A stretch of 34,863 bases of DNA from an uncultured delta proteobacterium. GTDB lineage: Bacteria; Myxococcota_A; Polyangia; Polyangiales; Polyangiaceae. How positions within the stretch are numbered: position 1 is the first letter of the stretch; each line of letters begins with the position of its first letter. A model generated the notes under the pieces. It worked only from the letters and a program-made list of their open reading frames with translations, did not search any database and was not told where the DNA came from. Position numbers and translations under genes: made by a program. This document shows positions 6,949 to 33,993 of this stretch, in pieces. The DNA lies in the NCBI GenBank assembly GCA_903894755.1, contig CAITRH010000303.1, positions 1-34,863 on the forward strand, written 5' to 3'.

Positions 6949-8697
6949 CCGCGAGGTCGTGTAACTCGTGTTCTCGAGCAGGATCACATTGGTCTTCGAC
7001 CTCGTCTCCCCAACACTGGTCACGTACACCGCCGGCTGATCCTGCACAGGACACACCTTCTCACACGCCCCGCAGCCAATGCATAGACTCGGGTCTACAT
7101 GGGGACGCTGCAACTTGACCAGCTTCATCGCCGGCTCGGTCCCGTCCGCCCCAAACTTCGCTTCCCGCATCGGCGCCATCACCTCCTCGACCCAAATGGC
7201 CTTCGGAGACGTGGGACAAAATTCCTCGCACACGATGCAAGGTGTCCCCATCGACCATGGCAAACACCTCCCATGGTCGTAAAACGCAGTCCCGATCTTC
7301 ACCGGCGCCATCCCTATCCCGGTCTTTTCCTTCTCCGTGATCTTCTGGATCGCTCCCGTAGGACACACCTGACCGCAAAGTACACACGAGTGCTCGCAAT
7401 ACCCTACCCGCGCAATCAGGATCGGACTCCATATCCCTTCGATGCCTGCCTCCAACAAGGACGGATGAAGCGCATTGTTGGGACACACCTTCATGCATTC
7501 GGCGCAGCGAATGCACCGCTCGAGAAACGCACGCTCCTCTACAGCACCCGGCGGACGGATTACCTTGGAATGATAGTTTACGTCCAGCGCGTCGGCCACC
7601 CTCACAGCAGGAAGAAACGCTGCCCCCGCCCCCACTGCAGCAAGCGTCGTGCGACGGTCCACATCCGGGGTCACAAGGGCGCTCTTGCGGTTTGGAAGCA
7701 GCCTGAACTTGATCACATCCTCCGGACACGCCCCCTCGCAGTTCATGCACATGTGGCACTCGTCCTGACGCCACTTGACCCCTCCTTGCGGACTGTCGGC
7801 CCCTTGGCAATTCACCAAGCACAAGTTGCAGTCCGTGCACTTCGCATGCGCCTTCTCCATCCCAAAGAGCGCAAAGCGCGCAAGCACCCCAAGGAACGCT
7901 CCCAGCGGGCAGAGCACACGGCACCAGAAGCGCGGAATGATGCGGTTGGCAAACAGTACCGCGATCAGAAGGAACACAATGAGCCAGGTCTGATGAAAAT
8001 AGAACTGACGGCTTTGCCAGATCGTGCGCGCCAGGAAGTCCTGCGTGTGATCGGCTCCCCTCTGCACCGCCCCGACAGGAACATTCTGCGCAAACCCAAG
8101 CCCCCGTCCCGTCACATACTGCGCAGCGGGGATCACCCCTAGCCCAATGGACCGCACCGCGACGCAGATGGGATCGAACATGCCGCCTATGGCGCTCCCC
8201 CCAACGGCTGCCAACAAGAAGGCGTACATGAGATAGTACTTCGCCCGCTGGTAGCCGTGCGTCTTGTTGGCCTCGACCCGTACGCCCCCCCGACCTCGCT
8301 TCGAGGGGAGAAGCCAAGCAAAGAAGTGATGGAGAGTCCCGAAAGGACAAAGCCACCCGCAGAATACCCTTCCAAACACCAGCGTCAGCGCCAATATCCC
8401 TAGGCTCCATAGAAGCCCTCGGTACACCGTGTGCGTCGAAAGCACAGTCATCGCTGCCACGAACGGGTCGGCCAAGAGAAACGCTTCGACAGGAAGTGGC
8501 AAGCGTACTGCGGTGTCTGCCTTGGCTGCGAAGCTCCCTCGAAAGGCGGTCTGGAACAAGAAGTACATGAACAGGCCAAAGAAGAAGACCTGCGAGAACC
8601 TGCGAAGCCATACGAGCGACCGGATGATGGGACGTGCTGGGGTCCCCAGTCGCTTCTGTCCTCGCTTCTTTTCCCCTACCGGCTCCTTGGATTGCAT
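6946..8697 (-). CDS. Membrane poly-ferredoxin, NapH-NapG-like fusion (4Fe-4S binding protein)
   Basis: The 583-residue protein has an N-terminal membrane part (helices near 34-50, 95-115, 155-172 and 236-252) with the NapH/NosR-type motifs FCGWLCPFG (113-120) and WCRVLCPLG (258-266). Ferredoxin-type Cys clusters follow: CTDCNLCLVNC (287-297), CHMCMNCEGACP (314-325), CIRCAECMKVCP (395-406), CEHSCVLCGQVCP (434-446), CIVCEEFCP (487-495) and CIGCGACEKVCP (539-550). At about 348-365 there is a second hydrophobic stretch preceded by Arg-Arg (DRRTTLAAVGAGAAFLP), as if a Tat-type NapG were fused behind NapH. The likely role is electron transfer from quinol or to a partner redox enzyme at the membrane. 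It starts three bases after the stop of the DUF362 gene, so translation is coupled. Its stop lies in a dispersed repeat, so the original C-terminus may be altered. Confidence 0.88.
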   Translation of the reverse strand: MQSKEPVGEKKRGQKRLGTPARPIIRSLVWLRRFSQVFFFGLFMYFLFQTAFRGSFAAKADTAVRLPLPVEAFLLADPFVAAMTVLSTHTVYRGLLWSLGILALTLVFGRVFCGWLCPFGTLHHFFAWLLPSKRGRGGVRVEANKTHGYQRAKYYLMYAFLLAAVGGSAIGGMFDPICVAVRSIGLGVIPAAQYVTGRGLGFAQNVPVGAVQRGADHTQDFLARTIWQSRQFYFHQTWLIVFLLIAVLFANRIIPRFWCRVLCPLGAFLGVLARFALFGMEKAHAKCTDCNLCLVNCQGADSPQGGVKWRQDECHMCMNCEGACPEDVIKFRLLPNRKSALVTPDVDRRTTLAAVGAGAAFLPAVRVADALDVNYHSKVIRPPGAVEERAFLERCIRCAECMKVCPNNALHPSLLEAGIEGIWSPILIARVGYCEHSCVLCGQVCPTGAIQKITEKEKTGIGMAPVKIGTAFYDHGRCLPWSMGTPCIVCEEFCPTSPKAIWVEEVMAPMREAKFGADGTEPAMKLVKLQRPHVDPSLCIGCGACEKVCPVQDQPAVYVTSVGETRSKTNVILLENTSYTTSR

Positions 8698-30714: not shown

Positions 30715-31452
30715 ATGGTTGATTTGGAGGGGAAGTCCCTGGATGCCGCTTGTTTCGCGCGGATCGTTGCGACCACACCGGATGGCATCGCCCTCGTGGA
30801 CCACTCCTACGTCTACCTCATCGTCAATCCGACCTATCTTCAGTGGCATCGCAAGACCCAGGAGCAGATCGTCGGCCACACGGTGCAGGAGCTGTTGGGC
30901 GACGAGGTCTTCTTCTCCACGGTGAAGCCGCAGATCGATCGCGGCCTCGCGGGGCAGACCGCCCGCTACGAATTTTGGCTTCCGTTCAACGACGGGGTCC
31001 GACGCTTCATCAGCGTGACCAACGCCCCGTACATCGAGGACAGCGGAGAGCTCACCGGCGTGGTGGTCACCGTTCGGGACATCACCGCCCTAAAGGAGGC
31101 GAAGACTCTCCTTGCACGGCATGCGGCTCGAGAGCAGACGGTCAACCGGGTAGTGCAGGCTATTCGCAGCTCCCTCGCCCTCGACGCGGTTTTTTCCATT
31201 GCGGTGCAGGAGGTGGGCAAGGCGGTCTCGGCAACGCAGACGATCCTGGCGAGGCGCCAGCCGCAGGATAAGTTCTGGTTGCACATCGCGGAGTACCGTG
31301 CCGACCCAATGGTCCCCGTCTCCTTGGGCCTGCGGATTCCAGACGACGGCAATCCCGTTGTGGAAGCGCTGCTTCGGGGCGAGCGGGTGCAGCTCGCGAG
31401 CACCTCGTGGACATTCCCCTTGCACAGACCTTGCCGGGCCATGTGTTCCTAG
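30715..31452 (+). CDS. Sensor half of a frameshifted hybrid histidine kinase (PAS plus partial GAF)
   Basis: The 245-residue frame starts at ATG 30715 with AAGGA six to seven bases upstream. A TTG 87 bases earlier is in frame but less likely. It holds a PAS domain (about 15-130, TTPDGIALVDHSYVYLIVNP ... VVVTVRDITALKEAK) and the first half of a GAF domain (AREQTVNRVVQAIRSSLALD ... LLRGERVQLAS). The GAF then breaks. The rest (DIPLAQTLPGHVFLVPLTIE) is in another frame starting near 31398, and this frame ends at a TAG at 31450. Both halves are needed for one GAF, so this is a single gene split by an indel near 31395-31410, from mutation or sequence error. Confidence 0.82.
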   Translation: MVDLEGKSLDAACFARIVATTPDGIALVDHSYVYLIVNPTYLQWHRKTQEQIVGHTVQELLGDEVFFSTVKPQIDRGLAGQTARYEFWLPFNDGVRRFISVTNAPYIEDSGELTGVVVTVRDITALKEAKTLLARHAAREQTVNRVVQAIRSSLALDAVFSIAVQEVGKAVSATQTILARRQPQDKFWLHIAEYRADPMVPVSLGLRIPDDGNPVVEALLRGERVQLASTSWTFPLHRPCRAMCS

Positions 31453-33188
31453 TGCCGCTCACCATCGAGGGGCAGGTCTGGGGATGCCTTGGTCTGCGGC
31501 GCATTGCAAAACCCTGGCTCGAGGAGGAGCAAAGCCTTGCCTGCCGATTGGCCGACGAGCTCGCCCTGACCATCCACCACGCAAGTCTCCACGACCGGCT
31601 TCAGAAGGAGCTCGCGGAGAGGCTTTCCATCGAGGCGTCGCTGCGCCGGTCCGAAGAGCGACTGCGGCTTGCCCTCGACTCCGGCCGCCTCGCCTTCTGG
31701 GACTGCGACCCGGACACGGGACAGATGGTCTGGAGCGACCGGGAGATGGACCTCCTGGGATATACGTCCCACTCAGTGACCCCCAGCTTCGAGGCCTGGC
31801 TTGCCAGGGTCCATCCCGAGGACCGTCCCCGAATCGATGCAGCACTGGCAGCGCTGAGCAGCGGTGCAAGCACGATGGAGATGGAGCACCGTGTAATTCA
31901 CCCAGACGGCAAGGTCCTCTGGTTGCGCGCCACCGTTCGGATCGTCACAAGCGAGGGGGGACACAAAGTTCGCATACTCGGCACGAACATCGATATCACC
32001 GCAGACGTGCTCGCCAGGGAGGACCTGAAGCGAGCAAAGAAGGCCGCCGAAGCCGCGACCCAGGCCAAAAGCGATTTCCTTGCGGCCATGAGCCACGAGA
32101 TCCGAACCCCCATGAACGCCGTGCTAGGCATGGCGGAGCTGCTTCGAACAACTCCTCTCACCCCCAACCAGCATCACTTGCTGAACACAGTCCTCAGCAG
32201 TGGCGACGTGCTCTTGACGCTGGTCAACTCAATCCTGGACTTCTCCCGCGTCGAAGCCGGGCAAATCGACCTGACGGAAGCTCCCGTGGACCTTCGCCGC
32301 TGCGTTGAGGAAATCGTGGAGCTGCTCTCGCTGCGCGCCGCAGAGAAGTCCCTCACGCTCAAGGCACTGGTGGACGTTCGGGTGCCTACGTCGCTCCTTA
32401 CAGACGCTACTCGGGTGCGGCAGGTGCTCTTCAACGTAGTAGGCAATGCTGTCAAGTTCACCGAGCGGGGGAACGTGACTGTGACCATGTGCTCAAAGGC
32501 AGTCGAAACGGGGCTGCACGAGGTGGAGATCGCGGTCACGGACACTGGGCCGGGCATTGCGGCGGACGCTCTGCAGGGGCTGTTTCTCCCCTTTCATCAA
32601 GTCGATCGCTCCTTGGCAAGGCGCTTCGGAGGGGCGGGGCTAGGACTCGCCATCAGCCAGCGTCTTTGTCAGCTTATGGGAGGAGGTATCCAGGTAACGA
32701 GCCAAGTGGGCAAGGGCTCGACGTTCCGCTGCACCTTCCGAGCGCGGTCGGTTCCCCTGTCCGCTCCGCTGCCGCAGCTGCCCCCGAGCATCTTCGACGC
32801 CACCTTCGCCAGCAGGTTCCCTCATCGGATTCTGGTGGCAGAAGACGACGCGATCAGTCGCGACGTAGTCGAGTTGATGCTCGAGCACCTCGGCTACACT
32901 GCGGACTTTGCGACGAACGGGCGTGAAGCGCTGGAGGCGTTGGAGCGCGAGTCCTACGACTTCGTGTTGATGGACGTGCAGATGCCGGAGCTCGATGGTC
33001 TCGACGCCACGCGGCGTCTACGCCAGCGGAACATCAAGCACCTCTGGATCGTAGGGCTCAGTGCCCACGCCTTTCAGAGCTCGCGGGACGAGGCCATGGC
33101 GGCCGGCATGAACGATTACCTTACGAAGCCCGTCTCGGTCGCTTCCCTGGCCGAGGCGTTCAATCGTGCCCCGCCGCGTCCGGCCTGA
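31407..33188 (+). CDS. Kinase half of the hybrid histidine kinase (GAF end, PAS, HisKA, HATPase, REC)
   Basis: The 593-residue frame carries the rest of the GAF (to about 65), a PAS with PAC (about 90-210, LRLALDSGRLAFWDCDP ... GTNIDITADVLAREDLKRAK) and HisKA with H-box SHEIRTPMN (His230). HATPase follows with N-box NVVGNAVKFTERG, DTGPGIA and GGAGLGLAIS. A C-terminal receiver has Asp523 in LMDVQMPELDG and Lys in YLTKPV. All kinase and receiver residues are intact. It has no Shine-Dalgarno at the GTG 31407 and its GAF lacks a first half, so it is not a proper independent start. The whole protein would be a soluble tandem-PAS/GAF hybrid kinase, with no transmembrane segment. Next to it are the 21-bp array and an acyl-CoA ligase remnant. 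Confidence 0.88.
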   Translation: MDIPLAQTLPGHVFLVPLTIEGQVWGCLGLRRIAKPWLEEEQSLACRLADELALTIHHASLHDRLQKELAERLSIEASLRRSEERLRLALDSGRLAFWDCDPDTGQMVWSDREMDLLGYTSHSVTPSFEAWLARVHPEDRPRIDAALAALSSGASTMEMEHRVIHPDGKVLWLRATVRIVTSEGGHKVRILGTNIDITADVLAREDLKRAKKAAEAATQAKSDFLAAMSHEIRTPMNAVLGMAELLRTTPLTPNQHHLLNTVLSSGDVLLTLVNSILDFSRVEAGQIDLTEAPVDLRRCVEEIVELLSLRAAEKSLTLKALVDVRVPTSLLTDATRVRQVLFNVVGNAVKFTERGNVTVTMCSKAVETGLHEVEIAVTDTGPGIAADALQGLFLPFHQVDRSLARRFGGAGLGLAISQRLCQLMGGGIQVTSQVGKGSTFRCTFRARSVPLSAPLPQLPPSIFDATFASRFPHRILVAEDDAISRDVVELMLEHLGYTADFATNGREALEALERESYDFVLMDVQMPELDGLDATRRLRQRNIKHLWIVGLSAHAFQSSRDEAMAAGMNDYLTKPVSVASLAEAFNRAPPRPA

Positions 33189-33218
33189 GCGTCGCAGCTT
33201 GGGCCTCACGCTTTGTCC

Positions 33219-33324
33219 GCAGCACTTTTGGACCGACCCGCAGCACTTTTGGACCGACCCGCAGCACTTTTGGACCGACCCCGCAGCACTTTTGGACCGA
33301 CCCGCAGCACTTTTGGACCGACCC
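33219..33324. repeat. Tandem array C, 21-bp unit, 5 copies
   Basis: Five identical 21-bp units (each beginning GCAGCACTTTTGG and ending ACCGACCC) start at 33219, 33240, 33261, 33283 and 33304. One extra C between the third and fourth unit shifts the register by one. The period equals that of arrays A and B, but the sequence is unrelated. The array begins 30 bases after the kinase stop codon and ends directly at the acyl-CoA ligase remnant. Confidence 0.93.
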
Positions 33325-33993
33325 GCAGCCTCGATGTGGGGAGAGCTCGCGGCAAGCTTGACACCCCACGCCCCATCGGGGTTCATGGTGTCCATGCCCA
33401 CCGACCTCGAAGCCTACTTTGCAATCCCCTGCATGGGGGCCGTGCTCCACCCCCTCAACCTGCGACTCCACCCCAACGAGCTCGGCTACATCGCTCGCCA
33501 CGCTGAAGACCGCCTGGTCCTTGTCGACGAGTCCCTCTTGCCGCTCCTTCAACAGTTTCTCCCCCAGGTCCCCTCCGTCGAACATGTGATCGTCCTGCGA
33601 GACGGCCCTCCCCCAGGCGATGAACGCCTCGACTACGAAACCCTGCTCGCCGCCGAACGTCACGGCTTCGAGTTCCGCAGACTCGAGGAAAACCAGGCAG
33701 CCATCATCTGTTACACCTCGGGCACCACTGGCAATCCCAAGGGGGTTGCCTACAGCCACCGTTCCACTGTGCTTCACACCCTCGTGGCTTGCATGGCCGA
33801 CACCATCGGCGTTTCCGAGGCCGACTCGGTCCTGCTGACGCAGCATCTCGAGGCGAGGTTTGCCAAGTTTTGGCTTCCTGACGACTACGTCTTCGTGCAT
33901 CAGATTCCTCGTACTTCGACAGGCAAGTTTCAGAAGCTACGGCTGCGAGAGGAACACGGAGACCTTCTGGTGCGTCGTCGCCCGCCCCCGTGA
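33325..33993 (+). pseudogene. Acyl-CoA ligase (AMP-binding enzyme) remnant
   Basis: The frame contains recognisable adenylate-forming enzyme blocks: LEAYFAIPCMGAVLHPLNLRLHP and DELGYIARHAEDR-like text (here NELGYIARHAEDR), then the AMP-binding P-loop YTSGTTGNPKGV and the C-terminal IPRTSTGKFQK. The order is right but the size is wrong. After SEADSVLL the sequence jumps directly to LEARFAKFWLPDDYVFV, so roughly 300 residues are missing, including most of the adenylation core. The N-terminal part is missing too and the upstream frame runs into array C. It cannot be active as such. Its stop overlaps the GTG start of the next gene (GTGA), so the operon junction survived the deletion. The intact ancestor was probably a medium- or long-chain fatty-acid CoA ligase. 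Confidence 0.85.

Follow-up and report, generated by a model that had tools for sequence, protein, structure and literature searches.

Plasmid iterons, the binding sites of Rep proteins, are direct repeats of about 20–22 bp with a spacing near two helical turns, and they occur as a single family next to a rep gene and an AT-rich region. A survey of prokaryotes identified non-coding dispersed satellite families only in Leptospira interrogans (46, 46, 37 and 69 nt) and Methanocella conradii (37 nt), and published prokaryotic satellites follow no common length rule beyond multiples of a codon (Subirana and Messeguer 2019, PMC6749651). In Beggiatoaceae and cyanobacteria, direct repeats of the heptamer TAACTGA lie near start codons (PMC4679880). 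Literature searches on Polyangiales and myxobacteria turned up no tandem repeats of 21 bp, an absence that is weak evidence.

The window, the whole stretch of 34,863 nucleotides that was analysed, has a tandem array at 33217–33329 (+ strand), in which the unit CCGCAGCACTTTTGGACCGAC is repeated 5.3 times (TRF: 97% match, score 217). The 19-mer GCAGCACTTTTGGACCGAC is present as five exact copies starting at 33219, 33240, 33261, 33283 and 33304 (span 33219–33322) and shuffles of the window contain no such run, which bears out the five identical units reported by a sequence-only reading of this DNA. The uniform 21-bp period given there stands for three of the spacings (21/21/22/21); the remaining one is 22 bp because unit 4 is preceded by an additional C, which makes the array not strictly 21-periodic. 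Rfam gives no match on the window, and a scan at the array finds neither promoter nor terminator. Two other arrays of the same length class, A (546–628, unit GACATCGCTCATGGCGACATC) and B (698–1016, 15 units of CGCTCCAGATTGCAGTGACGA), both given without strand, have exact 21-bp periods, and the unit of the 33217–33329 array is, as had been noted, unrelated to theirs in sequence. Array B contains an open frame of 102 aa (712–1020 of the window) built of TTLQIAV-type heptads. This frame, called coding by the codon model used here, is probably a side effect of a period of exactly 21 bp.

The array at 33217–33329 can itself be read as PQHFWTD repeats, 21 bp being the seven codons of a heptad (coiled-coil) protein, and the genome does contain some coding heptad repeats of 21 or 42 bp. 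Decay of such a coding repeat into non-coding DNA is nevertheless the least probable of all the explanations considered. At the 22-bp spacing the reading frame changes from PQHFWTD to PAALLDR, so that codon phase is not constant, and there is no match to a protein family. Periods of 22, 41, 43, 85 and 86 bp, all found in the genome, are not multiples of a codon, and 51 of 56 strong arrays with periods of about 21n are intergenic (counted in every tenth contig plus the loci with the unit of this array).

Upstream of the array, the ORF of a hybrid sensor histidine kinase (31407–33188, + strand; H-box and receiver motifs read from sequence) has an intact 3′ end, and its stop lies about 28–29 bp from the array start. 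A further 107 genomes of the family contain no close homologue of the kinase that could serve as a synteny anchor. Downstream lies the remnant of an acyl-CoA synthetase (AMP-binding, PF00501; 33406–33993, + strand), composed of an N-side piece (33406–33834) and a C-side piece (33805–33969). An intact 545-aa synthetase is found in relatives (L202) and is 68% identical over the N-side piece; compared with such homologues, the remnant is short of ~78 residues at its N terminus and of a further ~265 internal residues (222 to about 487), its frame being still open despite the internal deletion. The array had been described as lying exactly between the kinase end and a ligase with N-terminal loss. 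It does lie between the two, but 77 bp separate its end from the first residue homologous to acyl-CoA synthetases (33406), and the truncation comprises, besides the N-terminal loss, the internal deletion that the earlier description overlooked and at which there is no array.

The unit is dispersed through the genome. A search allowing up to three mismatches finds arrays of this family (F1) at eight intergenic loci: C303 (the contig of the window), C531, C94, C451/C464, C137, C565, C753 and C317. The last was found by a two-unit pattern, and C451 and C464, which overlap inside one F1 array, are counted as a single locus. Within each array the units are near-identical, locus-specific variants having been homogenised; between loci CCGCAGCACTT is constant and the remainder is variable (TTGGACCGAC, CGGGACCGAC, TCGGACGGAC, CGGAACCCAC, CCGGACGCAC). 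Units of 22 bp occur at about six different positions in the F1 unit and units of 20 bp do not occur. The unit is absent from 58 relatives, and an exact-pattern scan for the two-unit core gives no hit in 84,980 GTDB species (r220) and viral contigs. F1 is probably young or genus-specific, since the compared relatives are all of other genera.

Flanks differ between most F1 loci, and the genes next to the other F1 arrays are of the housekeeping kind. On C303 and C531 the arrays break off at an identical phase and are followed by a common right flank, CCGCAGCCT-CGATGTGGGGA ... AGCTCGCGGCA, which in the window occupies 33330–33360 (+ strand; CCT-CGATGTGGGGA ... AGCTCGCGGCA, with one gap of ~18 bp); this shows that array and flank were copied or inherited as one. 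At C531 (L031:3679–3800) the array has a divergent gene on one side and the ribosomal rpmI-rplT genes (L35-L20) on the other; no array stands at rpmI-rplT in the nearest named relative (L218, Lake Erken MAG, 81% L20 identity). A 42-bp array at L161 (C630):2–149 alternates the F1-like units CCTCAGCACAAAAAGAACCGA and CCTCAGCGCCCGATCGCGCCT, forming a dimeric higher-order repeat.

Since the array and ~31 bp of right flank are a block homologous to the C531 locus, the 5′ break of the ligase lies beyond it, at ~33360 to 33406, that is 31–77 bp from the array. The sequence-only reading had suggested the array as a possible cause of the ligase's N-terminal loss; with the break beyond the shared flank and a second deletion that has no array, this suggestion is not supported. 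No array of this kind is seen near intact ligase homologues in relatives, which are of other genera. The decay of the ligase and the array are probably separate events, although the array may have had a passive part in the loss. Some insertion sequences have repeated termini with several near-identical units of about 20 bp in a row; the array resembles these, and its unit is dispersed. A relic of a mobile-element end (for example with IS21-type repeated termini, which are multiple and lie at both ends of istA/istB), inserted in or by the ligase and truncating the gene, is even so highly improbable, as the scanned genes flanking F1 loci give no transposase profile, there is no inverted partner array, the flanks mostly differ, and the array lies off the breakpoint.

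Periods were counted in a sample of every tenth contig (0.60 Mb unmasked) of the 6.8-Mb draft genome (778 contigs), with genes called by a simple codon model (80% coding); 17 short sampled contigs are fully masked, and arrays are often at contig ends. This random sample contains 32 strong intergenic arrays with 20–90 bp units, whose periods are 21 (nine arrays), 22 (two), 26 (one), 41 (two), 42 (eleven), 43 (three), 63 (one), 85 (one) and 86 bp (two). Twenty-nine of the 32 fall within 21.3n ± 1.4 (31 if 41 bp is counted) and none has an odd multiple of 10.5 bp (31–33 or 52–54 bp). Compared with a uniform spread, the binomial P for 29 of 32 is about 1e-19. The same pipeline places near 21n four of ten arrays in relatives (0.58 Mb, 14 relatives) and one of five in diverse controls (1.31 Mb, 80 loci), giving a Fisher P of 1e-4 for the comparison with relatives and diverse loci pooled. 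Autocorrelation of intergenic 5-mers has peaks at 21, 42, 63, 84, 105, 126 and 168 bp, and with the detected arrays masked residual peaks are left at 42, 43, 85, 86, 128 and 170 bp; that of the relatives has codon multiples only, without 21n preference. The period is not single-valued (21.0, 21.3, 22, 41.5, 42 and 43 bp). There are higher-order repeats, in which 43 is 21 + 22, 64 is 21 + 21 + 22 and 86 is four units, and many 42-bp units have no internal 21-bp similarity. By the criteria used here total array density is unexceptional, at 45 per Mb against 43 per Mb in relatives (coding included); the exceptional features are the intergenic share and the length quantisation only. Two relatives carry single intergenic arrays, of 43 bp (G002) and 22 bp (G006), so that the class may extend beyond a single genus.

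A class of elements defined by length had been suggested from the three arrays of the window, and the tandem-repeat tally upholds it, with peaks at 21, 42–43, 63 and 85–86 bp and about 30 unrelated sequences in a tenth of the genome. As a class it is missing from the relatives and the diverse genomes that were sampled. The array at 33217–33329 is a member of an intergenic satellite class set by unit length (21–22, 41–43, 63 and 85–86 bp), not by sequence. Elsewhere in the genome, three short adjacent 21-bp arrays at L096 (C150):12936–13256 have a common start, TGCCT[GC]CTTC, differ in the rest of the unit and are set apart by repeats of GAGGCCGGATGGTGACCATC. The 21-bp array at L159:7389–7742 has an inner higher-order period of ~11 units, its autocorrelation dropping to 0.45 and coming back to 0.76 at 232 bp.

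With 5.3 copies of 21 bp, an intergenic position and a unit found at eight loci, the array falls within Subirana and Messeguer's definition of a non-coding, dispersed satellite (at least four regular repeats of 10–200 nt). Like the Leptospira and Methanocella satellites, the arrays of this genome are intergenic and species-specific, with several dispersed families per genome and presumed satellite transposition; the published families within a species have no length quantum in common and follow no 21n rule, whereas here about 30 unrelated families lie on 21-bp multiples, and the units are shorter. Array density is ~53 per Mb intergenic, a figure obtained with criteria not directly comparable with the published ones (PMC6749651). 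The TAACTGA repeats are likewise many intergenic direct-repeat arrays across one genome, but consist of one conserved 7-nt sequence, whereas here there are many sequences of 21 bp without start-codon preference. In contrast to iterons, the families are many and unrelated, no rep gene or AT-rich region is seen, and the array adjoins a sensor kinase and an AMP-binding fragment in place of an initiator gene. CRISPR loci are also tandem direct repeats between genes; here the near-identical units are contiguous, without spacers, and on informal inspection no cas gene is recognised beside the array. The length-quantised class is a new form of the known bacterial intergenic satellites.

Clustering of the units gives ~21 groups, or ~30 when they are grouped more strictly. 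No 5–8-mer is common to the ~30 array families beyond shuffles, dyad symmetry shows no excess in the units and is absent from F1, and single-stranded DNA folds worse than shuffles, setting the units apart from the palindromic ones of REP/BIME type. There is no 10.5-bp composition harmonic (the alphabets tested excluded G, T, C) and no tendency in RNA folding relative to shuffled-unit arrays. The gene context (12 ++, 7 −−, 8 divergent and 7 convergent) reveals no promoter bias, and the neighbours are ordinary (rpmI-rplT, a Ham1-family gene, ftsK, proC, tetR, kinases). A dispersed REP-like intergenic repeat (GATTGGCAGCCCCGAAGGGGCGAATCAGAACAGCCCAGGG...CGGTTCGGACCTGCGGTTTTCAAGATGGGTTTGGTTTAG) is found beside many arrays (L096:13312–13394, L171:1147–1227, L081:11506–11559, L033, L161, L147, L166, L042 and others).

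A second family, F2, has a 42-bp unit (GGAGGCACTTCGGG...), whose pattern matches 56 times across at least 13 contigs and not once in other genomes of the family. Among the ten F2 loci examined the left flank GAGATCCCCTTCGCCGATGCGACCGAG is common to many, and at five loci the right-hand flank continues into a PDDEXK_2 (Rpn-type, PF12784) gene or remnant; common flanks are found at C117/C753/C180/C40/C620/C1/C290. The common flanks at several F1 and F2 loci show that arrays were copied along with neighbouring DNA, both families having spread as blocks of this kind. F2 arrays lie a short way upstream of PDDEXK_2 genes or remnants and share their orientation, the distance being 46–48 bp at three of the loci, on C117 (L082:56–240 and 8507–8693; L041:13695–13924), C753 (L037:326–432) and C180 (L099:74–270), and the two C117 genes also contain in-frame 7-aa GEKRGIE repeats. 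PF12784 is patchy in the family, with nine matches here and 12 in one relative; the 22.7 kb of that relative that were sampled contain no 21n array, so that the Rpn-type nuclease is not supported as a sufficient driver.

The travelling of F2 with PDDEXK_2 genes and common flanks would be expected had one ancestral 21-bp satellite spread in mobile cassettes and diverged, the 42-, 63- and 86-bp periods being its higher-order repeats. Such common descent would also account for GCACTTCGGG, which is common to F1 and F2, for the dimer of F1-like units at C630 and for the weak relatives at C690 and C665. It is unlikely, because the 30 families have no k-mer in common beyond chance, near-identical units within arrays mark the arrays as young, and such an ancestor would not readily yield 42-bp units that lack internal 21-bp similarity.

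The many unrelated sequences of one length, with no common motif, structure or context, are what would be produced by a mutational generator that duplicates anywhere with a fixed step of ~21 bp, slippage then amplifying functionless arrays; homogenised units within arrays are also as local slippage predicts. Candidates for such a generator are the filling-in of paired nicks two turns apart, or a polymerase that switches template on a protein-bound loop. Isolated two-copy duplications argue against it, since only two of seven intergenic and one of 12 coding pairs are in 21n, compared with 35 of 39 loci with at least three copies after merging (Fisher P = 0.0016; the counts of isolated duplications are small and the set includes loci chosen for carrying F1). 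An apparent excess of two-copy 21-bp duplications was discarded, nearly all being pieces of longer arrays. Coding tandem repeats have no 21-bp excess either, except in heptad coiled-coil genes, though an in-frame 21-bp duplication should be tolerated. We therefore regard the generator as a somewhat unlikely explanation. The lack of a 21-bp excess in isolated pairs and its presence at three or more copies favour selective amplification or retention over it, and amplification or retention, not birth, appears to be length-selective.

The account that we prefer, though only tentatively, combines length-selective amplification or retention through phased nucleoprotein arrays with later dispersal in blocks. 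Tandem duplications would arise at any length, and only steps of two helical turns (or multiples) would be amplified and kept. Units on one face of the helix would hold a row of a putative bound protein, as phased, iteron-like nucleoprotein arrays, and copies would then disperse with flanking DNA. Phased binding by a row of protein is proposed because 21 bp has no simple physical meaning other than two turns of B-DNA. The families have no motif, dyad, 10.5-bp harmonic or fold in common, from which it follows that no single sequence-specific protein can bind all of them. The several period values make the helical phase only approximate, and the absence of odd turn numbers is better accounted for by a 21-bp footprint than by phase alone. 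It is conceivable, and put forward with reserve, that this is a satellite class set purely by length (two helical turns and even multiples), comprising dozens of unrelated sequences in one genome and kept or amplified by dedicated, as yet undescribed length-measuring machinery, which may be an enzyme that duplicates two turns at a time or a DNA-binding protein in phased array.

Many intergenic satellites would not be expected in a bacterial genome. If the class holds, the sequence of an array alone would be a poor guide to kinship between repeats. About 30 unrelated families under one length quantum would, if true, make the control of unit length directly testable, and would separate the birth of duplications, which is not length-selected here, from their amplification or retention, which is.
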